Source: an uncultured Bacteroidales bacterium (GTDB lineage Bacteria > Bacteroidota > Bacteroidia > Bacteroidales > Muribaculaceae). Taken from it: a stretch of 40,259 nucleotides of DNA. Location of the stretch: the NCBI GenBank assembly GCA_902774055.1, contig CACYGX010000027.1, positions 1 through 40,259 on the forward strand, given 5' to 3'. The notes under the pieces were generated by a model. It was not told the origin of the DNA, ran no database searches, and saw only the letters and a list, made by a program, of their open reading frames with translations. The stretch's first letter is position 1. Every line of letters begins with the position of its first letter. Positions 11,601-30,693 of the stretch are shown piece by piece. A program made the position numbers and the translations under genes.

Positions 11601-12649
11601 CGTTCTACTACGACAACCAGCGCAGCAGTCGCCCGGGCACGGTATACGACCTGACCCTTCCGGATGCCTCGACCTGGCCCGGTTGGTACTTTGACTACGA
11701 CACCCAGGCTGCGGTCACCAGAGTGGTGTTTGACCTGACATTCAGCAGTGTACGTCCTCAAACGACCTATGCCTGGTTTGGCGGGATGTCGAATCTCACG
11801 ACCGTCATCGGCATGAAGGAATACCTGAACACGTCTGAGGTGACGAACATGAATAATATGTTCTCAGGGTGCTCTAGCCTAACGAGCCTCGATGTGAGCG
11901 GCTTCAACACATCCAATGTGGAATATATGGCCAGCATGTTCTATGGCTGCAGCAACCTGAAGAACCTCGACTTGAGCAGTTTCAACACGTCTAATGTGAG
12001 TTTCATGAGTAATATGTTCAGTTATTGCCGGAAATTACAGAGCGTAAACCTGAGCAGTTTCAACACGTCCAACGTGGTGGAGATGAGTGGCATGTTCATT
12101 GAATGCAACAAGTTGGCAAGCGTTGATCTGAGCAGTTTCAATACGTCCAATGTGACCAACATGCGTACCCTTTTCCTTTTTTGCTATGATTTGAAGAGCA
12201 TTGATCTGAGCAGTTTCAACACTTCTAAGGTGACCGATATGGAAGATATGTTCGGAGTCTGCTCTGGCTTGACGACCATCTATGTGGGTGACGAATGGAG
12301 TACGTCAGCCGTCCCGCCATCTACCAGTATGTTCTACGGTTGCACCAGCCTGGTGGGCGGTATGGGCACGACCTACGATGCCAACCACGTGGATAAGACA
12401 TACGCCCGTATCGACGGCGGTCCCAGCAATCCCGGCTACTTCACTGCGAAGGGCGGAACTGTCCTTCGTGGCGACGTGAACGGCAACAACGAGGTCACCA
12501 TCGCTGACGTTTCGGCCCTGATCGACTACCTGTTGACCGGCGACACCACGGGCATCAACATGGCTGCCGCCGACTGCAACGGCCTTGACGGAGTCACCAT
12601 CGCCGACGTATCGGCCCTGATCGACTACCTCCTCACCGGCGCCTGGTAA
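8666..12649 (+). CDS. Giant BspA-like surface protein: DUF285 and LRR_5 arrays with dockerin-like end
   Basis: 1327 residues. The first 16 residues match the signal-peptide start of the second surface gene, but then pass directly and in frame into a DUF285 lead-in (LTFYYDNLRSSRSG), so the signal peptide is cut short. Domain order: DUF285 about 17-300, a second DUF285 about 310-495, LRR_5 about 502-750, a second LRR_5 about 755-960, a third DUF285 about 964-1260, and two dockerin-like loops 1267-1327. The lead-in motif TLTFYYDNQRSSRPG starts each later DUF285 block. The family is exported and often adhesive. The mosaic order suggests growth by recombination between paralogues. Export is doubtful with the truncated hydrophobic core. 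Confidence 0.8.
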   Translation: MVMKHKTLLIRLVVLTTLTFYYDNLRSSRSGTTYSLPEDTDNPYSIIQQPGWISDSTNAHVTKVVFATAFTHARPTTTQYWFLNMHQLQSINGIENLNTSSVTKMLYMFCGCSNLTNLDLSHFDTSNVTTMNEMFASCSSLTSLDLSNFNTSNVTTMYSMFSNCTGLTSLDLSNFNTSNVTAMNEMFDNCSGLTSLDLSNFNTSNVTTMKWMFYHCSDLTSLDLTSFNTYSVTAMSNMFASCSSLNSIFVSPNGWSTDAVIQSENMFFACTRLEGGKGTTYDADHVDKTYAHIDGGVDNPGYLSNINDPRPYACYTPLNSTLTFYYDNQRSSRPGATYGLNTGNNYPEWSFVASNYILTQVVFDPSFAGARPTSTYAWFYGMKYLESITGISYLNTSEVTSMALMFDQCKELTSLNLSSWNTSKVTTMELMFYNCINLTSIYVYNGWNTNMVNVSTDMFLNCTSLVGGKGTTYSPSNPKDKTYARIDRGPGTPGYFRQGYSFCVDGIYYNITGSNTVDVASDGENSYSGIVTIPSSVGYNGVTYQVTGIGNDAFYNCTDLDSVSIPPTVTAIRHDAFYNCSVLEHVTLPSGLTTIGDNAFHLCWNLRDITIPDNVEYIGVGAFMECSNLASVVIGNSVTTIGQQAFDHCTSLTGVVIPNSVTTIGKKAFYGCSNLENAVIGSGVTSIGSQAFYSCTNLRNITCKGTTPPTMAASDVFDNSAYTYATLFVPNGSLSAYQSANWWRNFTTISDQKFYDFAVNGIYYLITSGNTVEVSFRDAGLNTYSGNVTVPETVPYGGVTYQVTGIGTGAFANCANLTGVTLPSTVTYISDFAFMSCPSLGSVTLPNSLLTIGKRAFRDCTGLTSVTIPNSVTTIGMMAFDGCTGLTSVVIGTSVTFIGSYAFDDCDALRDVTCLASTPPVMENAGVFNDDTYAYGTLTIPEASQSAYHSANWWKNFSHVSTFVPEAYACYTPENTTLTFYYDNQRSSRPGTVYDLTLPDASTWPGWYFDYDTQAAVTRVVFDLTFSSVRPQTTYAWFGGMSNLTTVIGMKEYLNTSEVTNMNNMFSGCSSLTSLDVSGFNTSNVEYMASMFYGCSNLKNLDLSSFNTSNVSFMSNMFSYCRKLQSVNLSSFNTSNVVEMSGMFIECNKLASVDLSSFNTSNVTNMRTLFLFCYDLKSIDLSSFNTSKVTDMEDMFGVCSGLTTIYVGDEWSTSAVPPSTSMFYGCTSLVGGMGTTYDANHVDKTYARIDGGPSNPGYFTAKGGTVLRGDVNGNNEVTIADVSALIDYLLTGDTTGINMAAADCNGLDGVTIADVSALIDYLLTGAW
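9103..9336 (+). repeat. 78-bp tandem coding repeats (26-residue DUF285 unit)
   Basis: Units starting GAGCAACTTCAATAC begin at 9103, 9181 and 9259, exactly 78 bp apart, with very few differences over the first half of each unit. The encoded unit is LTSLDLSNFNTSNVT.M followed by a variable loop ending MF..C. Such nearly identical tandem units allow slippage or unequal exchange without loss of frame. Confidence 0.8.
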
Positions 12650-13652: not shown

Positions 13653-13697
13653 GACGTCAGGTCTTAGAAGTTTAGCTTCTTCCTGACGTCTTTTTTA
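13653..13697 (+). terminator. Terminator of fabG, overlapping the convergent gene's end
   Basis: GACGTCAGG (13653-13661) is perfectly mirrored at 13682-13690, with an inner AGAAG/CTTCT stem, and TTTTTT follows on the plus strand. It overlaps the last codons of the convergent peptidase. Confidence 0.7.
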
Positions 13698-14848
13698 ACG
13701 GCATTCTTGTTCAGGAAAATGTAGGTCGTGTTCAATGCGATATAGGCCTTGGACATATACCAGATGCCCTGATAGTCACCCGTTTTTCCCCACGAATTTT
13801 TCACCATATAATACTCGCGGCCATTCTGATCGCGGGCGATGCCGTAGATGAGCATCACATGGTCATAGGTGGACTGCCAGTTGTCAAAACGCTCCTGACG
13901 CAGTTCCTGGGAGGGAACTAACTCGGGTGTTTGGGCGCCTAATTTCTTGAGTGATTCAGCCTTTTCCTGTTTGGTAAGTTTCAGCCAGCGGGCGGCATCA
14001 CTGCCTGTCAAGTCGGGTGCGTGCTCAATATCAGCGGCAATGGCCAGTCCCGTGCGTGTAAATCCGTCCTCGCTCACGTCGCCTCCCCACGCTACGGTAT
14101 ATCCGCTCTTGAGCGCTTCGTCAATGACAGCCATCATCTCGTCGAGCTTGACATTCCAGCTGGGACGTGGACGCCACTTGTAGGGAGCCTCAATAACAAA
14201 CTGCTCATAAAACGGGTGGTGGGTAAAGCTCGTGATGCTCACGTAGTTGTTCTTGTCAATGCGCAGAGATTGGGCAAAGGCTTTTGGCGTGTATTTTTTC
14301 CCTTCATAGGTGAACGTCTCGGGGCAGGTACCCAAATAGGCGTCGAGGATGCCCTGCAGACCCACCTTCCACTGCGTGGTGAGTTTAGTGCTGCTACCCT
14401 TAGCAATAGACTCCACGTAGGGCTCTAAGGTGGCAAAGAATTCGGTAAAGTTGGCCAAAGTGTCACCAATCATCGAGCCTGGCCGTGCCATCGCTTCCTC
14501 AGGGCAGATGCCATGACGGTCAATGACCTCCAGCACGTCATCGGCCGAGCCTCCCTCCGAGAAGCGGCTGGAACCGTGCATCCTCACGTGGTATTCAGCA
14601 CAGTCCACATAATCCTTGTTAGCGACAAACATTTCGCTCAAGTCATAGACTTTGCCTGTCTCACGCAGCAACTCGGCTTCCACAAAACCGATTGTGGCGT
14701 AGTCCCAACACGTGCCACTGCGGTTTTGGTTCTTCACTTGAGTGATGGGGTTTTCCATCACGGTCGTGAACACAATCTCATCTGCCGCCTGGGCACCAAA
14801 CGTGGACAGGAGGCACATCATCATAGCTAAAAATGTGGTCTTTTTCAT
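13664..14848 (-). CDS. Secreted C1-type cysteine peptidase (bleomycin hydrolase-like, C1B)
   Basis: 394 residues from the ATG at 14848, where a signal peptide starts MKKTTFLAMMMCLLSTFG and ends near AQA. A longer frame from 14917 would contain the promoter box and is rejected. The papain-like set is visible: Gln41 and Cys47 in QNRSGTCWDYA, His330 in YDHVMLIYG, and Asn351 with Trp353 in VKNSWG. The spacing and the SEMF.ANKDYV segment fit the aminopeptidase C / bleomycin hydrolase branch. These enzymes trim peptides; the signal peptide places this one in the periplasm or outside. It is divergent from a secreted S41 peptidase, which suggests shared use in protein breakdown, but no common regulation can be shown. 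Confidence 0.82.
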   Translation of the reverse strand: MKKTTFLAMMMCLLSTFGAQAADEIVFTTVMENPITQVKNQNRSGTCWDYATIGFVEAELLRETGKVYDLSEMFVANKDYVDCAEYHVRMHGSSRFSEGGSADDVLEVIDRHGICPEEAMARPGSMIGDTLANFTEFFATLEPYVESIAKGSSTKLTTQWKVGLQGILDAYLGTCPETFTYEGKKYTPKAFAQSLRIDKNNYVSITSFTHHPFYEQFVIEAPYKWRPRPSWNVKLDEMMAVIDEALKSGYTVAWGGDVSEDGFTRTGLAIAADIEHAPDLTGSDAARWLKLTKQEKAESLKKLGAQTPELVPSQELRQERFDNWQSTYDHVMLIYGIARDQNGREYYMVKNSWGKTGDYQGIWYMSKAYIALNTTYIFLNKNAVKKDVRKKLNF

Positions 14849-14869
14849 ATTATCTGATGTTTTATTGTG

Positions 14870-14877
14870 CAAATATA
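14870..14877 (-). promoter_or_regulatory. TATATTTG promoter box of the C1-type peptidase
   Basis: It reads TATATTTG on the minus strand and ends 21 bases before the ATG at 14848, which supports that start. Confidence 0.65.
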
Positions 14878-14966
14878 CATCATTTAATCCAACTGTGCAA
14901 TCGCTATCATGCTCCATGCCACTTCATGTTTTCACCCAAAAGAATAGAAATATGTAAAAAATATCT

Positions 14967-15000: not shown

Positions 15001-16077
15001 ATGAGAAATGTCTGTTTGTTTTTGAGCCTTTGCATTGCTCTGATGGCTATGGCACAACAGGAGCCTCCTGTATTGACCGTTGCCCAGCATCTCGAGGATT
15101 ATGACTATGCTGTGAAGTACATCGAGGACAATTACTCGGGCTTCTCGTTCTGGGTCGTGGACAGCACGCGGGCCGACTACGAGGCGACAAAGGCCCACCT
15201 GCGCGACCAGGTCGAGCGTGGCGAGCGCCCGGGCTGGGATGCCGTTTCGGCCTATACGGGTTGGTTCAGCGACTTTCACATGGCCGTCTCGGTATATAAC
15301 GGGAATCCTTTCGCCTACTTCAAGCGCTCAATTATGGTCTATGTTGACTCGATACAGGAATATCGCCCAACGGCTGTGGCATGCAAGGTGACAGACAAGA
15401 CCTTCCTCATCCGTTTCCCGTCTTGTGGTGGCAACCCCGACAATAAGTGGATCAAGAACTCAGTCAAGCAATACAAGAAGTCCCGCTGCGAGAATTTGAT
15501 TTTAGATATTCGCGGTAACGGGGGTGGGGCAGACCATTTCTTCTATCCCTATCGGGAGTTGCTCTACGATCACGAGGCCCCCTATACAGCAATTGAGTTC
15601 CGCAACACCCCTCAGAATATGGCCTACCTCAAATCGATGGATTGGTTCCGCGGTGTGCAGCGCGCCGCTGTTGAGCATCCCGAGTTGGAGTTTATCCCAC
15701 TAGGGCACGGCACAATTCACAACAAGAAGAGAGACAAGAAGGTGCACCGAGCCGCGCTGATTATCGACAATGACGTTGCCAGCTCGGGCGAGGAGATGGT
15801 TCGCCAGCTCAAGGCCACCAGCGACCGCGTGACTGTCTATGGCCGTGACAACACGCTGGGTTGTTTGGATTTTTCTAACGTGTCTCGTGTCCAGATGCCC
15901 CATTGCGGCCTCAGTTTTGGCGTACCCTTGTCACGCAGCAAAGCCCTCCCCGAGAATTCAATCGACAAGAACGGTATCGCCCCCGACGTTCGCATCAACC
16001 TCCCGTTGCCCACCCGCTTGACCGACAATATCGACGAGTGGACCCACTGGGTGGCCTCGCAACTCGAGAAAGAGTGA
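15001..16077 (+). CDS. Secreted S41-family peptidase
   Basis: 358 residues with a signal peptide (MRNVCLFLSLCIALMAMAQ). The C-terminal half is an S41 (tail-specific protease) core: LILDIRGNGGG at 167-176, then AALIIDNDVASSGEE at 251-265, where Ser261 or Ser262 is the likely nucleophile and Lys271 a candidate partner, followed by a VYGRDNTLG segment. No PDZ domain is apparent, which is common in Bacteroidetes members. Family enzymes cleave exported proteins or peptides in the periplasm or at the surface. It follows its own promoter and is divergent from the C1-type peptidase. A DUF3784 gene follows after 51 bp and may be co-transcribed. Confidence 0.8.
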   Translation: MRNVCLFLSLCIALMAMAQQEPPVLTVAQHLEDYDYAVKYIEDNYSGFSFWVVDSTRADYEATKAHLRDQVERGERPGWDAVSAYTGWFSDFHMAVSVYNGNPFAYFKRSIMVYVDSIQEYRPTAVACKVTDKTFLIRFPSCGGNPDNKWIKNSVKQYKKSRCENLILDIRGNGGGADHFFYPYRELLYDHEAPYTAIEFRNTPQNMAYLKSMDWFRGVQRAAVEHPELEFIPLGHGTIHNKKRDKKVHRAALIIDNDVASSGEEMVRQLKATSDRVTVYGRDNTLGCLDFSNVSRVQMPHCGLSFGVPLSRSKALPENSIDKNGIAPDVRINLPLPTRLTDNIDEWTHWVASQLEKE

Positions 16078-16545: not shown

Positions 16546-17505
16546 TCATAGTTTCACGGCGTTGATGTCCACGAGTCCATTGACGATGGCGTAGATTGTG
16601 AGGCCGGCGGGGCTGTGGATCTGCAGTTTGCGGGCGATGTTGCGACGGTGGGTGATGACTGTGTTAATCGAGATGCCCAAATGGTCGGCAATTTCCTTGT
16701 TCGCCATGCCCTGGACCAGCGCGATGATGACATCTTTTTCGCGGTCAGAGAGCGTTTCGGCATGCTGGGTTTCGCCTTTCGCCACCATTTTGCTGATGTT
16801 TCTGGTGACGTCACCGTGCTTGACAAGATGCTCCAAATTGCGTATAGCAGGGACAAAAATGTGATCTTCTACCATGGCATGCTGGTGCAGCCACACCTCG
16901 TTCTCGTAGATGTCGTGCAGCGCGGCGGTCAATTGGTTGTTGTGCTGCCCGTCTTGCGGCAAGTACTTGATAATGAGTATTTTTAATTCATGCAGCTGTT
17001 GGTCGACCGCATCATGGTGCTTGGAAAAGGTTTCCACATTGTAGTCGCTGGCGGGTTGGCCATTGAGCAGGGTTTTGACATAGGGGAACAGGGTCTGTTG
17101 TTCATAGAACATGTGCCGGCGAATTTCGCAAGCATACTCGTCATAGAGTTTCATGATGAGTTGCGCGAGCGAATTGTCCTCGACGAGCGACTCCTCCAAT
17201 TCACGGCGGATATAAGGCAACTGGAAGTCGATGAAATAGGCATGGCTGGCATCAAGATATTGAAGGAGGGAGGAAACCGAGATGTGCTCATCGTTTTCTG
17301 TCACTTCGATGCCATTGATGGCATAGTTGACCACCGTCAAGAAGGTGTGCGTGTCCACATTGTTGCTCTCGCAGGTTTCCCTAACGGTCTTATCTCCAAA
17401 CCCGAGGCTGATGCCAAAACTGCCCAATGCCTGCAACAGGTTATAGTTATCGCCAATGAGCGATATCATCTTGTCCTCGGCTTCATATATCTTCTGCTCC
17501 TTCAT
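16546..17505 (-). CDS. Hemerythrin-domain LuxR-type transcriptional regulator
   Basis: 319 residues from the ATG at 17505. The frame opens earlier (17535), but the TAATTTTG promoter box covers that codon. Residues about 80-225 form a hemerythrin-like four-helix bundle with candidate di-iron ligands His88, His131, Glu135, His163 or His164, His209 and Glu213. The HxxxE pairs at 131/135 and 209/213 match the spacing in RIC proteins (YtfE/ScdA). An N-terminal stretch (20-60) resembles the DUF542 lead-in but lacks its paired cysteines. Residues 250-315 are a LuxR-type HTH (LSDREKDVIIALVQGMANKE). It probably senses oxygen, NO or redox-active iron and controls transcription. It sits just downstream of the TonB/M16 operon on the same strand, behind its own promoter. 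Confidence 0.8.
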   Translation of the reverse strand: MKEQKIYEAEDKMISLIGDNYNLLQALGSFGISLGFGDKTVRETCESNNVDTHTFLTVVNYAINGIEVTENDEHISVSSLLQYLDASHAYFIDFQLPYIRRELEESLVEDNSLAQLIMKLYDEYACEIRRHMFYEQQTLFPYVKTLLNGQPASDYNVETFSKHHDAVDQQLHELKILIIKYLPQDGQHNNQLTAALHDIYENEVWLHQHAMVEDHIFVPAIRNLEHLVKHGDVTRNISKMVAKGETQHAETLSDREKDVIIALVQGMANKEIADHLGISINTVITHRRNIARKLQIHSPAGLTIYAIVNGLVDINAVKL

Positions 17506-17589: not shown

Positions 17590-17616
17590 AAAATGCCCCC
17601 AAAAATGATGGGGGCA
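17590..17616 (-). terminator. Terminator of the TonB/M16 operon
   Basis: TGCCCCC (17594-17600) pairs with GGGGGCA (17610-17616). On the minus strand the stem is followed by TTTTGTG. It lies 34 bases after the M16 stop codon. Confidence 0.7.
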
Positions 17617-17649
17617 CTATTGCCGTCAAACGGCTGATGCTTTAATGGG

Positions 17650-20457
17650 TTACTCTGACAACATGGTGACCTCGATGCAGCGTTTGGCCTCGAGCAGGCG
17701 TTGGGCCATGCGTTGCACGTCACGGGCACTCATGTTCTCGACCATCTTGCAGTAATCACGGTCAAAGTCGGTCTCATCATCCAATTCATGCCAGATGATA
17801 TAGCTCCAATAGTCGTTGGTAATTGCCATTTGGGCATACTGCTTGGTCAAGTATTGCTTGACCTTTGCCATACTGGACTCGAGAGGCCCGTTATCAGCGA
17901 TGTTTTTCAGCTGCTGATAAATGATCGGGTTGAGTTCATTGTAGCGGTCGGGATCGGCATTGTACGAGATTTTGAAGGTGGCATTGGGCTGATCATCCTT
18001 AGCCAGTTCAAAATCGACGCTCACACCATAGGTGCCTCCTTTCTCCTCACGCACCGAGTCGGTATAGGCGATGGATAGGCAACGCTTCAAGAAGTCCAGT
18101 TCAAGGTCGCTTTGTGCGGTAAACGGCACATCGGCGGTATAGTAAATGCTGACATTGGCCAGCGGTGTAGCCATTTTCTTGGTGAACTTGTGAACCGCCT
18201 GACCACCCACGATTTGCGGGATATTGCTGTAATTGGTCTGCTCGTGCTTCCCGGTGGAAGGCAGGCAAGCAAGGTATTGACAAAGCAGTTTTCGCAATTC
18301 GGTTTCGTCATAGTTGCCGATAATCACCGTCTTGAAATTGGATGCGTCGCTGAAGCGCTCCTGGTAGATGTCGAGGATGCGGTCATAGTTCACCTTGTCA
18401 AGTGTCGATTGCACGACAGGCTCCATGCGCGGATGATGACCGTACAAGATGGCCCTGATAGAGTCGTTATAATCGACCTTGGGCGAGGCGTTACGGTTCG
18501 TTAAGAAGGAGCGGTTGCGGCTGATGAACTCGTTGAACGCAGTCGTGTCACGACGTGGCGAGGTGAAGTAGAGATAGGCCAGCTCAAACATGGTCTTCAT
18601 GTCCTTGATCGACGAACTGCCGTTGATGCTCCGCCCCTTGGAACCCACCGAGGGGCCAACGCTGACGCTCTTTCCCATGAGCATCTTACGCAAGGTCGTG
18701 GCATCAAAGTCGCCGACACCAGCCTCGGTCACACAACTCGAGATGAGGCTAAAGTTAGGGATATCCTCGTCACCATAGAGCGACGTGCCACCCTCGGCCT
18801 GCATTTCCAACGAGACGATATCAGCGCTGAAATCGGTCTTGCACGCATACACCTTCATGCCATTTGACAAAGTAATCTCGGTAAATCCATGCATGTAAGG
18901 TTTCTCGCTCACAATAGTGCCTGGCTGAGGAAGTTGGTTGATCAGATTATCGGCCAACTGTTGCTCGCTATAGGGCGCATAAGGCAGTTGCTGGGCAGCA
19001 AGGATGACTTGCTCAATCTGACCTTCGTTGGGGAGGATGACTTCCTGCTTGTCGGGAGCATACATCACCACGACTTGGTTCTTGTCGGTAATCAGTTCTT
19101 TCACCTCGGCATTGACCTCGTCGAGAGTCACCTCATCGTTCAGGCGTCGGGTGTTATTCATCTCAAATTCGTGCGAGATGAGTGGCTCTCCCGAGAGGAA
19201 GTTGCTCACGCACTCGTTGACAAAATGGGAATTACGGAAGTCGCCACGCATCTTGTAACGTCGCTCGGCGGCATTGAGGTAGAGGCTCTTGGCACGGTCC
19301 AGTTCACCCTGGGTGAAACCGTGTTGACGGGCCTGCTCGGCAACGCCCACAGCAGCAATAATGCCGCCCAGAATGTTGTCCTGCTTGCAGCTGATGCTCA
19401 TCGAGAAAGCCTCCTTGGTGCGGCTGATGAAGAACGTGGAAGCACGTCCCGTAGCGCTCTGGATGGGCGAACCGGGTTGCTGACGCAACTCGGCATAGCG
19501 GTCGTTGAGCATGGTGCTGATGAGGTTGTCGATGTAGTCACCCCGCAAGTAGGCAAGGCTGTTTTTCTCGTTGTCGGGTGTCGCATCGCGCTTCTGGTAG
19601 ATATGGCAGAGCACGATGGGCTGTTCGGCATCTTTCTCGATCGCAACAATCATCTTGTCGTTGTCGCTCACTGGATAGTAAACACGCTCGGCGGGTTTCT
19701 TGGGCATGGGAATGGACGAGAAGGTCTTCTTGATCTTCTTTTCCATCTTGTCCACATCAAAGTCACCCACGACCACGATGGCCTGCAGGTCGGGACGATA
19801 CCACTTCTGGTAATAGTCGCGCAGGTCCTGATAGGGGAAGTTGTCAACGATGTCCATCGAGCCGATGGGCATGCAATCCTCATATTTCGTGCCCTTGTAG
19901 ATCTTGGGCATGACCAATTCCTGCATGCGCTGCACTGCCATGCCGGCACGACGGGTGCGCCACTCCTCGTGGATCACGCCGCGTTCCTTGTCGATCTCCT
20001 CGTCCTCGAGCAGCAGGTAGTGGCTCCAGTCGTGGAGCACCAGCAGGCAAGAGTCGATGATACCTTCACGCACGAGCGGCGCCGACCCGATGTGATAGAC
20101 CGTTTGGTCTATCGACGTATAGGCATTGAGGTTAGCACCGAATTTCACACCGATGCTCTCGCACCAGGGCACGATGCTGGGCCGACCGTTCTTGCCGGGG
20201 AAATTCTTGGTGCCGTTAAAGGCCATGTGCTCCAGGAAATGAGCCAGTCCGCGCTGGCGAGGCTCCTCAAGGATGGATCCAACACGCTGGGCGATGTAGA
20301 AATCGGCGAGGCCTGCTTCCTTGGCATTGTGACGGATGTAGTAGGTCATGCCGTTCTTGAGTTTACCCGTGCGCACGTCAGGGTCTTGAGGCAACTGGGC
20401 TGCCGCCCACAAGGGCAGCAGCACCAGTGCAATGATTGTCAATATGTGACGCTTCAT
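17650..20457 (-). CDS. Secreted M16 family zinc protease (PqqL/FusC-size)
   Basis: 935 residues with a signal peptide ending near AAAQ (residue 21). The inverted zinc motif HFLEH is at 73-77 (His73, Glu76, His77). Glu165, in ERGVIHEEW, aligns with the third zinc ligand of pitrilysin and Glu158 with its supporting Glu. The second half (about 480-935) is a catalytically inactive M16 repeat, so one chain carries the full clam-shell, as in E. coli PqqL and Pectobacterium FusC, which are also about 930 residues. Such enzymes degrade peptides or small proteins in the periplasm. It starts 5 bp after the DUF4876 gene and ends the five-gene operon, so processing of something brought in by the TonB receptor is likely but unproven. 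Confidence 0.87.
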   Translation of the reverse strand: MKRHILTIIALVLLPLWAAAQLPQDPDVRTGKLKNGMTYYIRHNAKEAGLADFYIAQRVGSILEEPRQRGLAHFLEHMAFNGTKNFPGKNGRPSIVPWCESIGVKFGANLNAYTSIDQTVYHIGSAPLVREGIIDSCLLVLHDWSHYLLLEDEEIDKERGVIHEEWRTRRAGMAVQRMQELVMPKIYKGTKYEDCMPIGSMDIVDNFPYQDLRDYYQKWYRPDLQAIVVVGDFDVDKMEKKIKKTFSSIPMPKKPAERVYYPVSDNDKMIVAIEKDAEQPIVLCHIYQKRDATPDNEKNSLAYLRGDYIDNLISTMLNDRYAELRQQPGSPIQSATGRASTFFISRTKEAFSMSISCKQDNILGGIIAAVGVAEQARQHGFTQGELDRAKSLYLNAAERRYKMRGDFRNSHFVNECVSNFLSGEPLISHEFEMNNTRRLNDEVTLDEVNAEVKELITDKNQVVVMYAPDKQEVILPNEGQIEQVILAAQQLPYAPYSEQQLADNLINQLPQPGTIVSEKPYMHGFTEITLSNGMKVYACKTDFSADIVSLEMQAEGGTSLYGDEDIPNFSLISSCVTEAGVGDFDATTLRKMLMGKSVSVGPSVGSKGRSINGSSSIKDMKTMFELAYLYFTSPRRDTTAFNEFISRNRSFLTNRNASPKVDYNDSIRAILYGHHPRMEPVVQSTLDKVNYDRILDIYQERFSDASNFKTVIIGNYDETELRKLLCQYLACLPSTGKHEQTNYSNIPQIVGGQAVHKFTKKMATPLANVSIYYTADVPFTAQSDLELDFLKRCLSIAYTDSVREEKGGTYGVSVDFELAKDDQPNATFKISYNADPDRYNELNPIIYQQLKNIADNGPLESSMAKVKQYLTKQYAQMAITNDYWSYIIWHELDDETDFDRDYCKMVENMSARDVQRMAQRLLEAKRCIEVTMLSE

Positions 20458-20462
20458 CAGTA

Positions 20463-21701
20463 TTACTTATTGAGCAGCGAAGCGGGTGCTTCGGGAATAA
20501 AGTCGTTGGTCGAGTTGTTGGTGTCGATGTACTTGCCGTTAGCATCTTTCTTGCGGATCACCGACTTGTCGAAGCGGGTGTCGTCACGGTCCACCTTACC
20601 GCAATAGGTCCAGCCAGCGTCAATCGAGGCGTCGAGCACGTTCCACTCACGCACCGACTCAACACTCAGGTTCACACCATCCAGAATCCATCCATTGGGC
20701 ACCTTATACAGGCCGCTCTTGGTCATCTCCTTGGAGAAGTCCCCAAAGACAAACATGTAAGTGGCATCATAGACATAATTCTCGAGCCAATCTTCCTTGC
20801 TGGTCTGCATCTTGGCAATAGCCATTGAGTTGAAACCACGGCTGTGGAACTGGTAGATGGTAGCAGTGTAGCAATACCACTTGTCGAGGTTGGGAGCATT
20901 GCCGTCGGGGTCGGTGAAGTTGGGATTGGAAGTCTCATCATAGAACTCAAAGTCGGCATCGCTCAGGTCGATGGAGTTCGGCTGCTCGGTGGTGTGATTG
21001 ATGGCGTTAACGGCCAACTTCAGGCTCTTGCCAGGCTCAACGGGAACGCTCTTGCCATTGCCGGGAATCATGTAGCAGGCTTGTACCGAGAAGTGGGTGG
21101 ACATGATGTCGGGCTCGTAGTCTTGCTTGTCGGTGGTCAAGAAGGCCGATTCGAGCACGGCAATACTGTCGGCATACAGGGTTACGTCTGAGTTATTGGT
21201 GATGATGATGTACTGGTCACCGCTGTAGGACTTGCCTTCGGCGGTCGATGTACCCGTGAAGAAAATCTCGCTGATGACAAAGCCGCCCTGGGCTGTGAAC
21301 GTAGAGATGGTCATCTTCAGGTCATGACTTGTCGATGAAATGGCCACGTTCTCAGAGCGCACCTCAAAGTCCTTCTGGCCAGCCACGCCATTGAGGGTGA
21401 AGTCGAGATGACCGTTCACGGCGACATTATAGGTACCAGCCACAAGTTCGTTGCACATGATTTTGTAATCATTGCCCTGCTTGATGAATTTCGTATTGTC
21501 GATGGTGACAACCTGTTTGGTCTCGACGTTGGTCAGCGTGGCGCGGGCACCGCTCAGCACGACGTTTTTCAAGTTGGCGGGGACCTCAAGGGTAACCGTT
21601 GCAGTGGGGATGACGGGAACGGGGTCGTCACTACTGCATGAAGTCAAACACATGGTAAATGCGAGCATCATCATGATGCTGTTCAAGATTAATTTTTTCA
21701 T
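20463..21701 (-). CDS. DUF4876 lipoprotein
   Basis: 412 residues. The lipoprotein signal ends at LTSC, Cys22, then a Ser/Asp-rich linker predicts outer-membrane anchoring. Residues about 33-130 form a beta-rich N-terminal domain (ARATLTNVETKQVVTI, GTYNVAVNGHLDF). From about 139 comes the DUF4876 main part, beginning GGFVISEIFFTGTSTAEGKSY with DQYIIITNNSDV, a lamin-tail-like beta fold pattern. The function is unknown; the family travels with TonB receptors in Bacteroidales. It lies between the DUF6850 barrel and the M16 protease in the operon. A role in ligand capture at the surface, beside the receptor, is inference. Confidence 0.8.
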   Translation of the reverse strand: MKKLILNSIMMMLAFTMCLTSCSSDDPVPVIPTATVTLEVPANLKNVVLSGARATLTNVETKQVVTIDNTKFIKQGNDYKIMCNELVAGTYNVAVNGHLDFTLNGVAGQKDFEVRSENVAISSTSHDLKMTISTFTAQGGFVISEIFFTGTSTAEGKSYSGDQYIIITNNSDVTLYADSIAVLESAFLTTDKQDYEPDIMSTHFSVQACYMIPGNGKSVPVEPGKSLKLAVNAINHTTEQPNSIDLSDADFEFYDETSNPNFTDPDGNAPNLDKWYCYTATIYQFHSRGFNSMAIAKMQTSKEDWLENYVYDATYMFVFGDFSKEMTKSGLYKVPNGWILDGVNLSVESVREWNVLDASIDAGWTYCGKVDRDDTRFDKSVIRKKDANGKYIDTNNSTNDFIPEAPASLLNK

Positions 21702-21741
21702 TTGTTTTGTTTTTAATGAATTGATTGTTAATTATTTGATT

Positions 21742-23235
21742 TTAAAATGTAATTCCTATTGAGCATTGTAACAACGTCTGGTGTTCGCTAGCTGAGCACA
21801 AGGTCATACCGCCGCCCACCTGGGCAAAAAGTCCGTATTGGGACTGCTTCCAAGCGTAATCGGCACGCACCTTGGCGCCAAAGTCGGTATAATTGGCCTT
21901 CGCAAACTCATGCTTGTGCCGTATCAGCCACGAAATACCTTCTCCCATATTTGCAAAGGGCATCTGCAGTTTGTCGTCCACGCTGGCGTAATAGGAGGCC
22001 TGCGCATTGAGGGTCAGCAGCAGTTTGCCCGATGGTCGCAGGAAACATTGCCCCTGCAATTTGCCATAGGCGTGGCTGGCGTCCATCTGGCGGTGAGGAT
22101 AGATGTATTTCTCGCTTTGTGACTCATATCCGGCAGTCAAGACGACATTCCAGTTTTTCTTGCCATAGAGCGCGCTCAGGTTGCAGTCCAGCATGCGGCT
22201 CTTGTACATCGTCAGGCAAGCGATGACTGGAAAGTAGCGGGCATCGGAGGTGCCGCCTACGTGCTCGTTTCCTGTACGTCTCGTGTAGTCCACATGGGCA
22301 AATGTGGCGAGGCGATAGCCGTTGTCGCGTTTCCAGCCGATAGTCGCTCCCACGTGCTCGTTATAGAGGTCGGTGAGCGGCATGGAGTTGAATTCGGCGA
22401 GTTTGCGATGATAGCGGTGCTCGTCAAGTGTGATGTCGGCAAACACGCCGCAATCGCTGATGGGCGCTGCATGGAGCAGTATCGCCAATCCACCGCCGTC
22501 GTAATAGATGCTGCGTTTATCGCCCGAGAATCGGCTGTACTCGGTGCCCAGTCCCGTCATCTGGTATTCGGGAATGACGCCCTCCTCGCGGTAAAAGGCG
22601 ACACTGTTGGTCTGCTTGTAGATATTGCCCTCGACAGCAGTTCCAAGGCGATATGTCCCCAAATCATAACCGCCGCCCAAGCGCAGTGTCAAATCGGTAA
22701 CGACACCTCTCATGCGCGGGTCATGACCGCGGTATTCCTGCTCAGCCCTGACGTGTACCTCAGCGCCGAGTAGCCATTGGCTCAGTTGTGTAGCATATCC
22801 GCCCGAAATCGTGTAGCGCTCGCGACGAGTGTCTCCGCCTAGGGTATCGGCGAGGATATAGGGCTGCAGCAGGTCATAATCGCTGGTAGAGTTCCACTTG
22901 ATGCCATGCTGGCGGCCTGTCGTGTATGACGCCTCGCCCCACACCGTACTGCGGCCATTCAAGTGGCGATAGGTGTTCACCTTGAGGTAAGGCAGAGTGA
23001 ATCCGTTGCCTTGCTCAGGGACAAAAGCTGCGGACTGGCGTTGCAAGTCAAGGCCCAAGGCGAGTTGTGAAAAAGCCATCTGATAGCCGATGCCGTGCAA
23101 GGCGGGGTTGCGTAGCGACTCAAGTTGTGTCAACTTTTCCAACGACGTGTGCTCGACGAGGGCCGAGTCGGCATTGGAAGCCGATGCCGACTTGATGGAG
23201 ATGGCGATGAGTATGAAAAAGAATAGGCGTCTCAT
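21742..23235 (-). CDS. DUF6850 family outer-membrane beta-barrel protein
   Basis: 497 residues with a signal peptide (MRRLFFFILIAISIKSASAS). The body is a succession of alternating aromatic and polar beta strands with Gly/Tyr-rich turns, and the C-terminus ends SIGITF with a terminal Phe, as in barrels inserted by the BAM machinery. There is no plug or TonB box. The start codon is one base after the stop of the small lipoprotein gene, and the DUF4876 gene follows after 40 bp. DUF6850 is assigned from operon context and general resemblance. It may be a partner pore or anchor for the receptor complex; its function is unknown. Confidence 0.7.
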   Translation of the reverse strand: MRRLFFFILIAISIKSASASNADSALVEHTSLEKLTQLESLRNPALHGIGYQMAFSQLALGLDLQRQSAAFVPEQGNGFTLPYLKVNTYRHLNGRSTVWGEASYTTGRQHGIKWNSTSDYDLLQPYILADTLGGDTRRERYTISGGYATQLSQWLLGAEVHVRAEQEYRGHDPRMRGVVTDLTLRLGGGYDLGTYRLGTAVEGNIYKQTNSVAFYREEGVIPEYQMTGLGTEYSRFSGDKRSIYYDGGGLAILLHAAPISDCGVFADITLDEHRYHRKLAEFNSMPLTDLYNEHVGATIGWKRDNGYRLATFAHVDYTRRTGNEHVGGTSDARYFPVIACLTMYKSRMLDCNLSALYGKKNWNVVLTAGYESQSEKYIYPHRQMDASHAYGKLQGQCFLRPSGKLLLTLNAQASYYASVDDKLQMPFANMGEGISWLIRHKHEFAKANYTDFGAKVRADYAWKQSQYGLFAQVGGGMTLCSASEHQTLLQCSIGITF

Positions 23236-23236
23236 A

Positions 23237-23617
23237 TCAGTCGAGGAAAATCATGTTTAGCGTGACATTGTTCTGCTCCTTACTGATACACTCGGCATAG
23301 TCGCTCTGGCAACGGAATTGACGCATCACCGTGGCGCCGTCGGGCGATTGGCACGTGGCGACACCTTCGATGTCGATCTGGTACGCGCCACGCAGCAGTT
23401 CTACAGTGACGCCAGGGCCTTCAAAATTGGCCGAAGTAGTGACTTGACGAGTATTCACGTTGGTCAGCTTCACTTGCGCCTGCACGCGAGTGATGACAAG
23501 TTCCTCACTTGTCGCAACCGTGATATGGGCAGTAGTGAAGATATCGTCTTCAACTGGAGCACAGGCGGTGACAGCCAGGGTCAACACTATTATGATGAAT
23601 TGGAAGAACTGTTTCAT
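23237..23617 (-). CDS. Small lipoprotein resembling the DUF4876 N-terminal domain
   Basis: 126 residues. The lipoprotein signal ends at VTAC, Cys19. The mature part (VQAQVKLTNVNTRQVTT, then LLRGAYQIDIEG) parallels the N-terminal domain of the DUF4876 protein of the same operon (ARATLTNVETKQVVTI, then VAGTYNVAVNG). It looks like a free-standing copy of that domain. Its ATG overlaps the TonB receptor stop (ATGA), a sign of translational coupling, and the DUF6850 gene begins one base after its own stop. It is probably a surface or periplasmic lipoprotein working with the receptor; the exact role is unknown. Confidence 0.7.
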   Translation of the reverse strand: MKQFFQFIIIVLTLAVTACAPVEDDIFTTAHITVATSEELVITRVQAQVKLTNVNTRQVTTSANFEGPGVTVELLRGAYQIDIEGVATCQSPDGATVMRQFRCQSDYAECISKEQNNVTLNMIFLD

Positions 23618-26343
23618 AGCTTGATGTTCATTTCGAGGCCAAAGTATGGGGTGACATGACGACGGATGGTCGTGCCGCGGCTATCATAGTCGGGCGTATA
23701 GTCCCACAGTTTGTTACAAAACATGGCGATGTGGAGACGATCGTCAAAGAGTTTCTTGGTGACCTTCATATTCACATTCATGGCGAACGGCACACGGTTT
23801 TTCTCGAACAGCGAGGGCGTATAGTCCCTGACAAGCCACCGCAGGTACATATCATCGGCATCGCTCTCTTTCCAGTCATGGATACTGCCATGAGGGGAAA
23901 TGTACTGGACGGGATAGTTGCTGACCTCCTTGCGTTGCGAGGTGGTAAACCATAGGCATTGTGCCGAGATAGAGAAACCCAACTTGAGACGGGGCACATC
24001 GGTGTCGAGTGTGAAATTGGTGTTAAACGACTCCCTCACCGAGCCATCATCGTTGTCATACAGGCCCACATACTGAATCTGGCGGTTGTCGATCACCTGA
24101 CTCGGGCGGTAGGAATCCACAATGGAGTTGTTGTAAGTTGTGCGGAAGTAAGCACCATTGATGGTCAGGCGGGTCAGAATGACGGGGAAGCGCTGGGTCT
24201 CAAGCGTGTATTCAACACCTTCCTTGAGGGTCATGCTGCCGTTGGTGTAATTGCCATAGCCAGCCAACTCGTTGATCGTGGTGTAGGGTAGGGCATCTAG
24301 ACTGGGTTGTCCTGTAAGGCTTGCGGCACTGATGCCACTGGCGTCATATTGCTTGTATTGAAATGTCTGGTAGTGGGACTGCATGCGGAATCCCGACGTC
24401 ATCCGTTCGCGGAAAGCCGTCACTGCCAGCCTGTTGCCGCCAATGTTGATATCAAGCGACACCTCTTTCTTGAGGTTGCGGGCGGGTTCCAGCGCTGCAT
24501 TCCTGGGATTGACGATATAGGTCATCAGGTTAATGCGCCTGTAATCGGGATTGTCGTGGTAATAATTCAACTGGATGAAATCGACATACAACAAGTCTGG
24601 GAAGAGTTGTTCCATGGTGGGCATCTTGGTGTGTTGCCCAATGCCCGCCGCAAGACGGATAAACATCGGTTTGCCGAAGATTGAAAGCCTTGGCAACGAG
24701 TAGCCGATATTGGCGCGGGGATCCCAATACAACTTGCCGTTCATCGTATAATCCTGCTCCAGGTTCATCAGCGTGGTGGCGCGGATGCCTGCCGCAATCT
24801 CCAGTGTGCCGATGGCGGTTGGCCATTTCACACTCTCCTCGGCATAGACCGACAGGCGATGGTTGGCAGGAATGGCATTGAGCGAGCGTTGGCGCGACGA
24901 GATGCCAGTATATACAGGCTTATAGGGGTCAAATACTTGTCCACGCCCCAGGTTCTTATCCAGATTCCAGTCCGTGCCGATGAGCAGGGTATTGGAAACG
25001 GTATTGCTGGGAATCTGCAGGCGGGCATTAAGTTTGATGAAGGCATTCACGGGCTTGCCTTCCACCTCGTGGTGCCCGATGTATTTAAAGGGGAGGATAT
25101 AGGCGTCGTTTTCGCCTTCTTCCTTAGACAATGGGGCCACAGTCATGCGTGACAATTGCACTAAGCGGGTACGTTCAATCAAGTCGTTCTCGACTGAGGT
25201 CGAGAGGGTCAAGTCGGCCGATTTGAGCCACGATGGGCGCTTGGTCTTGAGTTGCAAAGCGGCCATCAGCGCATAGCGGTTGTAACTCGATTTATAGGAA
25301 TCCTCGGCGCTATAGGTTTGGTCAACATCCTCTTTATCGTTATCCAGCGACCTGGAATAGTCAATATTTGTCGAGAGGGTGAGGTCATAACTTTCTTTTT
25401 CCCAACGTTTTTGAAGCCTGGTCGAGATGGTCATGCGCTTGTAGTTCTCCAAGCGGTTGCGGGGGTCGGCCTTGGCATCAAGGTAATCGGCACTCACGTT
25501 TAGGGTGAGCCGTTTGGGCTCCCATTCAAAATCCTTGGCTGCATAGAAGAGTTTAGAACCCATATCAGCTTTCAAGCGGAATTTCATTCCTTGCCCGCCA
25601 TGGCGGCGCTCAATCTTGACCAGTCCGCTGGTGAGGTCGCCATATTCCACCGATGGAATACCGCGTACAATCTCGACGCGTTCGATGTCGTCGGTCGAGA
25701 TACCGCGCATGTCCACACCAGCATTGGTATTGTCGCGGCTGGTGGCCATATCATCCCACGCGCCGGCAAGATACTGCATGTTGGCACCAGTCGAGATGGG
25801 CGCGCCGTCGATGATGAAGCTGGTGCCCAGTGACGAGGTCGCATAGTTGCTATTGCCTGTGGAAATTTCACGGATGTGGATGTTGTTGGGTGTGCTCAAC
25901 GACGGATCAATGCTGCGCCCGCCGGGTATCAGCTCCAGCAAGTCAGCAAAACTCGACGGCTGCAGGTGCTCCATCGCATGTTTCTCAATTTTGGACGATG
26001 TCGTCAGTCCGCGGTTCTCCTGGGCCGTCACTACCACCTCGCCTAATTGGCTCACCTCAGCCTGCAGCAAGTAACGTCCGCTGGCAATGGGGGCAGTCAC
26101 CAGAGGCTTATACCCAATGGAGGTGATTCTCAGTTGGACCTCATTATTTTTAGGTATGGCAAAGGTGCCGTCAGCCTGAGTGACAGTAAGGGCTTTACCC
26201 CGTCTGGCATCGGCAATGGTGGCTCCGATGACAGGTTCCATCGTCTCGGCATCCAAGACAACCCCACTGATGAGCGATTGAGCATCAGCGAGTTGTGAAG
26301 CCAAGAGCGATATAGCCAGTATGATGTATCTAATCAGTTGCAT
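23614..26343 (-). CDS. TonB-dependent receptor with carboxypeptidase-like N-terminal domain
   Basis: 909 residues from the ATG at 26343, which begins a signal peptide ending ADAQ. An upstream in-frame codon at 26376 would put an inverted repeat inside the gene and is not favoured. Residues about 24-95 are a CarboxypepD_reg-like domain (ISGVVLDAETMEPVIGATI). The plug (about 100-235) includes SFADLLELIPGG and IERVEIVRGIPSVEYGDLTS. The rest is the barrel, ending YFGLEMNIKL. It imports a ligand across the outer membrane using TonB energy. It is not a SusC-type receptor, since no SusD follows. As first gene of the operon it defines the transport system. The ligand is unknown: peptide, protein or metal complex. 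Confidence 0.88.
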   Translation of the reverse strand: MQLIRYIILAISLLASQLADAQSLISGVVLDAETMEPVIGATIADARRGKALTVTQADGTFAIPKNNEVQLRITSIGYKPLVTAPIASGRYLLQAEVSQLGEVVVTAQENRGLTTSSKIEKHAMEHLQPSSFADLLELIPGGRSIDPSLSTPNNIHIREISTGNSNYATSSLGTSFIIDGAPISTGANMQYLAGAWDDMATSRDNTNAGVDMRGISTDDIERVEIVRGIPSVEYGDLTSGLVKIERRHGGQGMKFRLKADMGSKLFYAAKDFEWEPKRLTLNVSADYLDAKADPRNRLENYKRMTISTRLQKRWEKESYDLTLSTNIDYSRSLDNDKEDVDQTYSAEDSYKSSYNRYALMAALQLKTKRPSWLKSADLTLSTSVENDLIERTRLVQLSRMTVAPLSKEEGENDAYILPFKYIGHHEVEGKPVNAFIKLNARLQIPSNTVSNTLLIGTDWNLDKNLGRGQVFDPYKPVYTGISSRQRSLNAIPANHRLSVYAEESVKWPTAIGTLEIAAGIRATTLMNLEQDYTMNGKLYWDPRANIGYSLPRLSIFGKPMFIRLAAGIGQHTKMPTMEQLFPDLLYVDFIQLNYYHDNPDYRRINLMTYIVNPRNAALEPARNLKKEVSLDINIGGNRLAVTAFRERMTSGFRMQSHYQTFQYKQYDASGISAASLTGQPSLDALPYTTINELAGYGNYTNGSMTLKEGVEYTLETQRFPVILTRLTINGAYFRTTYNNSIVDSYRPSQVIDNRQIQYVGLYDNDDGSVRESFNTNFTLDTDVPRLKLGFSISAQCLWFTTSQRKEVSNYPVQYISPHGSIHDWKESDADDMYLRWLVRDYTPSLFEKNRVPFAMNVNMKVTKKLFDDRLHIAMFCNKLWDYTPDYDSRGTTIRRHVTPYFGLEMNIKL

Positions 26344-26353: not shown

Positions 26354-26376
26354 TTGGAGTATAAAATTACTCCCAA
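26354..26376. promoter_or_regulatory. Inverted repeat just upstream of the TonB receptor
   Basis: TTGGAGTA (26354-26361) mirrors TACTCCCAA (26368-26376) with one extra C, around a TAAAAT spacer. It lies 10 bases from the ATG, between the divergent receptor and HAD genes. It could be an operator or a leader hairpin. No clear TAnnTTTG box for the receptor is seen. Confidence 0.4.
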
Positions 26377-26442
26377 TCACCGCGCTTCACAATACCTAAA
26401 AAATACGAGGCCGCTTTTCGAACAGTACTCCATTCTGGACCC

Positions 26443-28137: not shown

Positions 28138-30414
28138 TTACAGCTCGCGGATGGTGATGCCGAAGCCGCCGGCTCGGGCCATGCGCAGCTTCATGACGGT
28201 TTTGGCGGTGACCTTCTTGCGGGTGATGGTGTAGGCCTGCGGGTTGGTCTCGTAGTCGGCGTCCTTGGCGTCGGCATAGATGGTGGCTTCATACTTGACA
28301 CCGGGCTTGAGGAAGTCGAGCTTGAAAGACACCTCGCGGGCATGGTCATCGTTGATTCCGCCAACGTACCACACATCTCGTGCCTTGGCACCATTGAGGT
28401 CGGCAGCGGTGGCTCCGTCAGGCAGTGCATAGATGAACTTGGCAGCACCACTCACCACATCCTTCTTGCCGTCGGGGAGTTTGGCAACGCCCTCAGCGGC
28501 CTTGTTGACGGTGGATAGCTTGGGATGGCGTGCCGTGACCATATATTCTCCCGGTTCAGCCATCAGATAGATGCTCTTGTCCCAATCGACCGCCACATCC
28601 TTGATAAACTGGAAGGCGTCCATGAAGCGGGCATAGTTCTCAGGCAGGTCGGCAGCCATCTGCAACGGTGAGTAGAAGGTGACATAGAGTCCCAGCTGAT
28701 TACAGATGGTGTGGCGCATCTTGTCGGCCCAACCGCTGACTTTCTCCAGGTCCATTTCGAAGATACCGGGTGTGAAGTCCATCGGTCCACCCTGCAGGCG
28801 GGTAAAGGGATAGACGGCGGTTTGGCCTGGGTCGATGCCCTGGCGGAACTCGTTGCCCATAGCGCTCTCGTTGCCAATCATGTTGGGCCAGGTGCGGCAC
28901 AGGCCCGTGGGACGCACTGCCTCGTGGGCATTGACCATGATGTGGTGCTTGGCAGCCTCGGTGATGGCATAGTGGTAGTGGTTGATGAGCGGCTGGCTGT
29001 AGTGGTACTCGCCATAAGGGATGATCTTGCCCACATAGCCGCTCTTGACGGCGTCATAGCCATATTGGTTCATCAGGTTGTAGGCTTTCTCCATCCAGCG
29101 CTCATAGTTGACCGTCGATGATGAACTCTCGTGGTGCATGATAAGGCGGATGCCCTTCTTGTGGGCATAGGCGTTGAGGGCAGGCAGGTCAAAGTCGGGG
29201 TAGGGGGTAATGAAGTCGAAGACGAAGTCCTTCTGCTTGCCGTACCAGTCTTCCCATCCTTCGTTCCATCCCTCGATGAGAAGGGCGTCAAAGCCGTTCT
29301 CGGCAGCAAAGTCAATGTAGCGGCGCACGTTCTCGTTGTTGGCACCATGCTTGCCATGAGGGGTGGAGTGGGCATAATCAGTCTTGCCCAGTTGCACCGA
29401 GGGGTAGTCATTGGTGTAGGACCACTGGCTCTTGCCGCTGATCATTTCCCACCACACACCCATATACTTGGTGGGGTGAATCCATGACACATCCTCGATG
29501 GCGCAAGGCTCGTTGAGGTTCAGGATGAGACGTGATGCCAGGACTTCGGTAGCGCTGCGGCAAACCATGATTGAGCGCCACGGTGTCTTGCAGGGAGCCT
29601 GCATGCGGCCTTTCACGCCCTCGGCATCGGGGGTGAGCCAGGTGCGCAGCACGAAGTTCTTGTCATCCAGGTCGAGGTTGGTCGTGGGATAGTCGAGCAC
29701 GGCGGCCTCGTGGATGTTGATGTAGAGCCCTTGGTCGGTCTTCATCTGCAGCGCTGTCTGGACGCCTGTTGGCGAGAAAGCCGTATTAGGCCATCCGCAG
29801 CCTGTGCGGGCCTTCGGGGTCAGTTCCCGCACTTGCGACAGTCGGGAGCGCGTGGGCCTGAATTCCTGGGTGGAATAGTCACCAGGAATCCACCAGGCGA
29901 TGTGGTCGCCAGTGAGCGCAAACTGTGTCAGTTCTTCCTTAATCATGAAATAGGTCAGCGCGTTCTCCATGGGAAACTCGTAGCGGAAGCCCATGCCGTC
30001 ATCATACAAGCGGAAGCGCACGTGCATGGCAACAGGTTTTTCTCCATCCCGGGCTGCTGGTTGCTGCAGCTTTACCAGTAGCTCATTGTAGTGGTTACGG
30101 ATAGAGGCCTCCTCGCCCCACACTGGCTCCCATGTCTCGTCAAACGATGACCGCTCTTGGTCAACAAGGACAAAGTCGCCCGTAAGTTGTCGGCTGCCCT
30201 TGAGCTCGAAGCCCAAGCGTGAAGGCAGGATGACCGCCTGACCATCAAAATCCAGCGAATAGGTGGGAATACCATCGGTCAAAGCAAATTTCATGACCAA
30301 ATTCCCGTTGGGACTCGTCATCGTGATGGCATCGCCAGTTTGGGCTGTACATGGAACGAATGTCGCTAGGATGACAACCGCCGCTATCAAAGTGGTTTTA
30401 AATGATTTCATCAT
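28138..30414 (-). CDS. Glycoside hydrolase family 97, SusB-type inverting alpha-glucosidase
   Basis: 758 residues with a signal peptide ending near CTAQ. Order: GH97 N-terminal beta-sandwich (about 28-290), (beta/alpha)8 barrel (about 300-640) and C-terminal beta domain. Five Glu residues, 184 (STQEFRP), 429 (MHHES), 498 (NAHEAV), 516 (GNESA) and 522 (GNEF), are each exactly 10 less than SusB Glu194, 439, 508, 526 and 532, the calcium and catalytic residues of the inverting enzyme. KSGYVG stands where retaining members have an Asp nucleophile. It should release glucose from alpha-glucosides in the periplasm or at the surface. No SusC/SusD or regulator is adjacent, so it is an orphan here. The start may be the second Met at 30411. 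Confidence 0.9.
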   Translation of the reverse strand: MMKSFKTTLIAAVVILATFVPCTAQTGDAITMTSPNGNLVMKFALTDGIPTYSLDFDGQAVILPSRLGFELKGSRQLTGDFVLVDQERSSFDETWEPVWGEEASIRNHYNELLVKLQQPAARDGEKPVAMHVRFRLYDDGMGFRYEFPMENALTYFMIKEELTQFALTGDHIAWWIPGDYSTQEFRPTRSRLSQVRELTPKARTGCGWPNTAFSPTGVQTALQMKTDQGLYINIHEAAVLDYPTTNLDLDDKNFVLRTWLTPDAEGVKGRMQAPCKTPWRSIMVCRSATEVLASRLILNLNEPCAIEDVSWIHPTKYMGVWWEMISGKSQWSYTNDYPSVQLGKTDYAHSTPHGKHGANNENVRRYIDFAAENGFDALLIEGWNEGWEDWYGKQKDFVFDFITPYPDFDLPALNAYAHKKGIRLIMHHESSSSTVNYERWMEKAYNLMNQYGYDAVKSGYVGKIIPYGEYHYSQPLINHYHYAITEAAKHHIMVNAHEAVRPTGLCRTWPNMIGNESAMGNEFRQGIDPGQTAVYPFTRLQGGPMDFTPGIFEMDLEKVSGWADKMRHTICNQLGLYVTFYSPLQMAADLPENYARFMDAFQFIKDVAVDWDKSIYLMAEPGEYMVTARHPKLSTVNKAAEGVAKLPDGKKDVVSGAAKFIYALPDGATAADLNGAKARDVWYVGGINDDHAREVSFKLDFLKPGVKYEATIYADAKDADYETNPQAYTITRKKVTAKTVMKLRMARAGGFGITIREL

Positions 30415-30659: not shown

Positions 30660-30667
30660 TATATTTG
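30660..30667 (+). promoter_or_regulatory. TATATTTG promoter box of the fourth surface protein
   Basis: It lies 26 bases before the ATG at 30694. Spacing and downstream ATTAACTTT resemble the boxes at 5996 and 8632. It excludes the upstream GTG at 30667 as a start. Confidence 0.65.
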
Positions 30668-30693
30668 TGGCGGATATTAACTTTAAAACCCAC

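Follow-up and report, generated by a model that had tools for sequence, protein, structure and literature searches.

A DUF4876-DUF6850 operon with an M16 protease in Bacteroidales and its possible part in importing iron-bearing polypeptides

The operon and its five proteins

We analyzed a 40,259-nucleotide stretch of DNA (hereafter, the window; contig CACYGX010000027.1) from the 3.17-Mb assembly GCA_902774055.1 of an uncultured Bacteroidales bacterium. The closest named records of this genome are metagenome-assembled genomes (MAGs) labeled as uncultured Prevotellaceae, Bacteroidales, or Muribaculaceae, one of them named Yak_Rumen. On the minus strand, from position 26343 to position 17650, the window holds a run of five genes that encode, in order, a TonB-dependent receptor, a small lipoprotein, a DUF6850 protein, a DUF4876 protein, and an M16 metallopeptidase. 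The run and the features that flank it are as follows, each with the method by which it was assigned.

26362..26397, minus strand: promoter-like block, AGGTATTG-N18-AGTAATTTTA (comparison of upstream regions and pattern scan)
23614..26343, minus strand: TonB-dependent receptor, 909 residues, with CarboxypepD_reg_2 and Plug domains (Pfam)
23237..23617, minus strand: small lipoprotein, 126 residues, kin of the DUF4876 N-terminal domain (BLASTP, profile comparison)
21742..23235, minus strand: DUF6850 outer-membrane beta-barrel, 497 residues (Pfam, AlphaFold2)
20463..21701, minus strand: DUF4876 lipoprotein, 412 residues, predicted to be surface-exposed (Pfam, lipobox scan)
17650..20457, minus strand: single-chain M16 metallopeptidase, 935 residues (Pfam, PqqL alignment)
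17592..17618, minus strand: terminator-like hairpin after the M16 gene (hairpin scan)
16546..17505, minus strand: hemerythrin-LuxR fusion regulator (Pfam)

The receptor and small lipoprotein genes overlap by 4 bp, and gaps of 1 bp, 40 bp, and 5 bp lead on to DUF6850, DUF4876, and M16, respectively; the frames and the tight spacing that an earlier, sequence-only reading of the window had described, including the ATGA overlap, are all present. Where it placed a terminator, at 17.6 kb, a hairpin lies at 17618-17592, although hairpins of this type are no more frequent across the region than in shuffled sequence (8 found versus 10.6 expected). Upstream of the receptor gene, the AGGTATTG-N18-AGTAATTTTA block, which we take to be a promoter of the Bacteroidota -33/-7 kind, is conserved in most of the examined relatives that share the window's gene order, and its exact pattern occurs a single time in the window's own genome.

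The M16 protein is a full-length homolog of PqqL that keeps the active-site residues. The two proteins are colinear, with 25% identity across 842 residues (E 2e-71). The window protein matches the Pfam families Peptidase_M16 (4.7e-19) and M16_C (4.2e-37) and carries the HXXEH motif as HFLEH at residues 73-77, and its E165 aligns with the active-site residue E167 of PqqL, whose active site is listed in PMC12731061. Ranked by E-value, its best matches among solved structures are 9ldy (an M16 peptidase), PqqL, and FusC chains. The N-terminus resembles a signal peptide, read by eye from the sequence like the other signal peptides and the lipoboxes of the operon proteins, and the protein agrees in this with the single chain of about 935 residues with a signal peptide, as in PqqL and FusC, described at the outset.

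The DUF4876 protein belongs clearly to its family (PF16215; 4.8e-58, 196.7 bits against a curated cut-off of 27.9), which has a solved relative in BT_1938 (PDB 4q1z). The small lipoprotein matches no Pfam family above cut-off but is similar to the N-terminal domain of the DUF4876 protein (4e-5 by BLASTP; 99% in profile comparison). Scanning for at least two acidic residues within six positions after the lipobox cysteine, a simple pattern applied to related sequences, we found that 96 of the 116 distinct DUF4876 N-termini have it, as do all 29 small lipoproteins, versus 22 of 103 other proteins with a lipobox-like pattern and none of the 16 members of the lipoprotein family that belongs to the ATP-binding cassette (ABC) gene cassette described below. 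Acidic residues in this position are the kind of export signal described in PMC5080379, and the DUF4876 lipoprotein is predicted from its N-terminus to be surface-exposed. The DUF4876 gene is duplicated in tandem in Porphyromonas uenonis (loci L099 and L155), and two consecutive DUF4876 genes, BT3631 and BT3632, appear in PMC10434189.

The receptor matches the Pfam domains Plug (1e-10) and CarboxypepD_reg_2 (6.3e-10) and scores 50.6 bits against the SusC/RagA model TIGR04056, far below the cut-off of 368.25. Pfam finds no SusD family among the five operon proteins, in agreement with the original description of a receptor without SusD. For the DUF6850 protein, the family assignment is strong (PF21012; 2.5e-95, 320.8 bits against a curated cut-off of 27), and the AlphaFold2 model, with a mean predicted local distance difference test (pLDDT) score of 90.9, is a confident barrel with 18 strands by hand count. 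Structural relatives of the model were generic barrels only, none of them specific; our guess is that the protein serves as a helper channel or as an assembly partner of the surface lipoprotein.

Linkage of the protease and the genes that stand in its place

To follow the M16 gene through related genomes, we searched 101 genomes of the genus, the window's own included. In 23 of them we found a DUF4876 gene at least 80% identical to that of the window, and the same 23 have an adjoining M16 gene that is at least 82% identical (one M16 has an internal stop, one runs off the end of its contig, and one is a partial match). In an even draw of 295 genomes from across the order, DUF4876 was present in 48 and DUF6850 exceeded its cut-off in 47, with 46 genomes common to both by hand count. 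Searching with the window M16 (E 1e-15), we found M16 directly after DUF6850 or DUF4876 in four of the 48 DUF4876 genomes (G000, G044, G308, and G317) and further down the same tight run in a fifth, G319; by our reading these five genomes represent five families. In G319 (L280:7231-16197) the protease module is extended: the second gene after DUF6850 encodes a half-size M16 and the fifth a single-chain M16, and the run holds several other frames. The linkage that the sequence-only reading had noticed in one genome, and whose confinement to that genome would have told against that reading, recurs in all 23 genus members with a window-type DUF4876 (the window's own genome included) and, beyond the genus, in several families.

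Named species show the same arrangement. Prevotella nigrescens has the five genes, as annotated, in the same order, followed by a convergent feoB, and the full arrangement with M16 also occurs in Hoylesella nanceiensis. Parts of the operon, on cut contigs or with broken genes, are present in Segatella copri, Hoylesella pleuritidis, and Prevotella disiens. Two Prevotella records filed as plasmids, NC_022111.1 (L270; 1.77 Mb) and NZ_CP082843.1 (L269; 0.57 Mb), carry the five-gene operon, and their size suggests that they are chromosomes rather than plasmids.

The genus, order, and named searches together gave 167 distinct loci (189 before removal of duplicates), a set that is biased toward the window and in which many loci are MAG fragments. 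DUF6850 is a same-strand neighbor in 161 of these loci and the receptor in 160, and there are two main gene orders: receptor-small lipoprotein-DUF6850-DUF4876 (the window type) and receptor-DUF4876-DUF6850. The accompanying module varies, being M16 in 81 loci, a 418-residue protein in 26, a DUF4857/ABC-2 cassette in 20, a HEAT-repeat protein in 9, and a CCP_MauG peroxidase in 6; 24 loci have none of these, and one has two modules. Where M16 stands elsewhere, the cassette (L096:1633-5541 and others) consists of DUF4857, an ABC ATPase, a permease-like membrane protein, a PepSY membrane protein, and a lipoprotein. The 418-residue protein is accompanied by a second protein in L212 (7194-9432), L076, L078, and others, with dockerin and FGE-sulfatase domains in L212.

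Outside the order, the only fair denominator is the 33 genomes with DUF4876, the distant regions having been fetched for a nearby hit. In eight of these genomes (G669, G716, G637, G489, G617, G749, G541, and G661), a CCP_MauG di-heme cytochrome c peroxidase gene comes after DUF6850, in one case with a 133-residue frame between, and eight other genomes have a same-strand M16 further downstream (G476, G456, G655, G610, G751, G635, G487, and G408, the last with opposite-strand frames between the run and the M16). A rough hand estimate puts the chance expectation below one case for the peroxidase and likewise for the downstream M16. In four distant loci an M28 peptidase stands beside M16 (two Pfam-confirmed), which favors full digestion of a polypeptide. 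In eight loci from other orders or classes (L299, L302, L303, L304, L305, L307, L308, and L309), the run includes a BNR beta-propeller protein, with a type IX sorting tail in both of the two examined with Pfam; some of these loci also carry an M28 peptidase or a 4Fe-4S protein.

We then placed the linked proteases on a tree of 72 M16 rows, 42 of them linked, a quick tree with long rows for which the program advises less trust. The linked/unlinked label changes six times, changes that the program reports as forced by starred branches, against a shuffled mean of 22.7; near-copies on the tree add to this clustering. The count is five without the non-adjacent G319 row (L280_D_0) and two with the large linked clades A and B alone. 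A single clade of all linked M16s is rejected by the approximately unbiased test (p-AU 5.6e-5), and we conclude that M16 has been recruited more than once, an uncertain number of times. On a first, 92-row tree, all 60 M16s labeled A or B have HFLEH or HFMEH. Among individual rows, L275, L276, and L090 are real M16s with long branches, L169 is linked, and L278_D_0 is a more distant M16 that is not linked; L255_U_0 and L263_U_1 proved to be antisense frames and were rejected as M16 rows.

In the window's own genome, we counted six single-chain M16 open frames plus a shorter one. With five such frames besides that of the operon, these genes are common, and the operon's M16 might be a housekeeping periplasmic protease that came to lie downstream by chance. 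We hold this to be very improbable, given that M16 is kept in every one of the 23 window-type genomes and that the labels cluster on the tree, even with the contribution of near-copies.

Iron responses, regulators, and the surroundings of the operon

Published transcriptomes tie homologous loci to iron. Without iron, PG1019-22 of Porphyromonas gingivalis, which comprises DUF4876 and receptor genes, is up 20.8- to 214.5-fold, and in Bacteroides thetaiotaomicron BT3625-33 is up 36.7- to 128-fold and BT1933-39, the locus of BT_1938, 3.5- to 7.4-fold (PMC10434189). The same paper draws PG1019-21, BT_1938-9, and PIN17_RS07775-90 of Prevotella intermedia as one conserved locus and gives a 5.2- to 33.2-fold increase for PIOMA14_I_0804-08 of P. 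intermedia OMA14, a "TonB-dependent transport system." A DUF4876 gene is among the hemin-responsive genes of PMC10470040, and PG_1019 and PG_1020 appear in a table of transcript changes in PMC10101095.

Neighboring regulators point in the same direction. In many window-type loci a hemerythrin-LuxR gene comes after M16, and 17 of the 167 loci contain an M16 together with a match to the hemerythrin-LuxR model within 9 kb. The fused counterpart of CdhR reported from P. intermedia has the same layout, and CdhR itself regulates hmuYR in P. gingivalis (PMC10434189). The hemerythrin-LuxR gene is probably transcribed separately from the operon. A FecR gene stands ahead of the receptor gene in eight distant loci (one Pfam-confirmed).

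These data also bear on the idea that the system imports peptides for carbon or nitrogen, unrelated to iron, with oligopeptides or a small protein being bound, imported, and digested. The M16 and M28 peptidases would suit such a role, as would the origin of several close relatives, which are rumen MAGs going by their record names (RUG denotes rumen genomes). We nevertheless judge it quite unlikely, because the homologous loci respond strongly to iron (PMC10434189), a heme peroxidase takes the place of the protease in other orders, and a regulator of CdhR layout and feoB are found as neighbors.

Other genes of the window lie outside the run. Near the operon are a C1-like peptidase (13664-14917, minus strand) and an S41 peptidase (15001-16077, plus strand), and a glycoside hydrolase family 97 protein is encoded at 28138-30414 (minus strand). 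Four large surface-type proteins on the plus strand (2327-5470, 6107-8143, 8666-12649, and 30667-33183) each end in a type I dockerin and contain Listeria-Bacteroides repeats or BspA leucine-rich repeats. At 38081-39043 (plus strand) lies a protein with three stretches matched by HTH_17 (excisionase-type), an unusual layout.

Comparison with known uptake systems and a proposed role

The operon shares features with several characterized systems. Like the Fus system of Pectobacterium (FusA, the M16 protease FusC, and ferredoxin), it clusters a TonB receptor with a single-chain secreted M16, and the alternation of M16 and cytochrome c peroxidase in Bacteroidota DUF6850 loci has its match in Proteobacteria, where FusA-M16 clusters are widespread and cytochrome c peroxidase genes are found where FusC is missing (PMC6793856). 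It differs from Fus in that its receptor is not recognizably FusA by the searches made and in that it adds surface lipoproteins and a DUF6850 barrel; Fus belongs to Proteobacteria, whereas the window operon belongs to Bacteroidota. Pfam finds neither the TonB-like FusB family nor the ABC FusD family among the five operon proteins. In YddB-PqqL of Escherichia coli, a receptor gene likewise adjoins an M16 with which that of the window is colinear, and PqqL expression is iron-dependent (PMC6793856), but no lipoprotein or second barrel is annotated beside yddB-pqqL, and the receptors do not match significantly.

Within Bacteroidota, PG1019-22, BT1933-39, and BT3625-33 have the same partnership of DUF4876 and receptor as the window, with no M16 among the products listed (PMC10434189). 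SusCD systems combine a receptor bearing a CarboxypepD domain with a surface lipoprotein, as does the window, but the SusD partner is absent from the window operon and the receptor falls under the SusC/RagA cut-off. The heme uptake system HmuYR joins a surface lipoprotein to a TonB receptor under iron regulation, and lipoprotein and receptor likewise occur together in the window operon, in which Pfam gives no match to the HmuY family. HmuYR is not known to include an M16.

We read the operon as a Bacteroidota version of protease-associated import. With confidence a little better than even, we propose that it is an iron-responsive outer-membrane uptake system, most likely importing an iron- or heme-bearing polypeptide that M16 cuts. 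The DUF4876 surface lipoprotein would capture the ligand, with the small lipoprotein, as kin of its N-terminal domain, in an accessory role; the TonB receptor would carry the ligand into the periplasm; and there the clam-shell M16 protease would cut it, freeing metal or cofactor for uptake across the inner membrane. The DUF6850 barrel is kept with the receptor-DUF4876 pair almost everywhere and would belong to the same machinery. The sequence analysis itself establishes the gene content and its conservation, the active-site residues, the predicted localization, and the linkage with M16s of separate lineages; we infer iron control of the window operon, the polypeptide ligand, and its cleavage. 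If this is right, the operon would work like the Fus system, of which we do not class it as a member.

The sequence-only reading had likewise invoked import and cleavage of an iron- or cofactor-bearing protein or peptide, and its two halves stand differently. The iron half is supported by the transcriptomes of homologous loci, the hemerythrin-LuxR gene, and feoB. The polypeptide half gains indirectly from the PqqL-like M16, from M28, and from the alternation of M16 and peroxidase, and loses by a receptor unlike YddB and by a link to M16 that is not universal.

Several observations weigh against the proposal. The BLASTP match of the receptor to YddB was not significant, and a PDB search with the receptor at E 0.01 returned neither FusA nor YddB, its three chains being two SusC homologs and a 93-residue receptor fragment; of the FusA family, YddB alone was compared pairwise, and FusA was looked for only through the PDB search. 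The products listed for the iron-induced published loci name no protease. PIOMA14_I_0804-08 may be the same operon, as its five genes would fit. As to repeated recruitment, the separation of clades A and B taken alone is weak (p-AU 0.03), and some of the remaining linked M16s lie on long branches. Finally, no M16 was found near DUF4876 in 43 of the 48 order-wide genomes, and a subgroup of the same genus has the 418-residue protein in the place of M16; the core, then, can function without an M16.

That so many DUF4876 genes stand without a nearby M16 also fits uptake of a small iron ligand (siderophore, heme, or ferric citrate), in which M16 would only clear co-entering peptides such as peptide siderophores, metallophore peptides, or bacteriocins. 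It is consistent with this that the iron-induced BT3625-33, which has DUF4857, ABC, and PepSY genes, lists the ABC and PepSY genes instead of a protease (PMC10434189). We give this account a minor but real share of our belief, since the linkage of M16s from separate lineages and the M28 peptidases in four distant loci suggest that the system's work includes proteolysis. The existence of the same core without M16 tells in turn against another possibility, that M16 serves in processing rather than import, as the maturation protease of one of the system's components or of an exported partner. M16 proteases process precursors elsewhere (on the family, PMC12731061), but the run contains no precursor-like small gene, and we consider this the least probable of the accounts weighed here.

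Beyond the window, polypeptide import suggests a broader and more tentative proposal, which we hold at somewhat less than even confidence: DUF4876, DUF6850, and the receptor may form a phylum-wide importer of whole metal-bearing polypeptides that evolved apart from FusA and works with an exchangeable periplasmic module for cofactor release. That module would be proteolysis (M16, sometimes with M28), redox release (the di-heme peroxidase), or the ABC-2/DUF4857/PepSY cassette, and the M16-or-peroxidase pair would be a point of convergence between two unrelated receptor families. If polypeptide import is correct, a protease-associated import strategy would have arisen more than once, DUF4876 and DUF6850 would gain a role, and strongly iron-induced loci of oral and gut Bacteroidota would be explained. 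The identity of the iron protein that bacteria of the gut and rumen take up would then become a question directly testable in tractable species.

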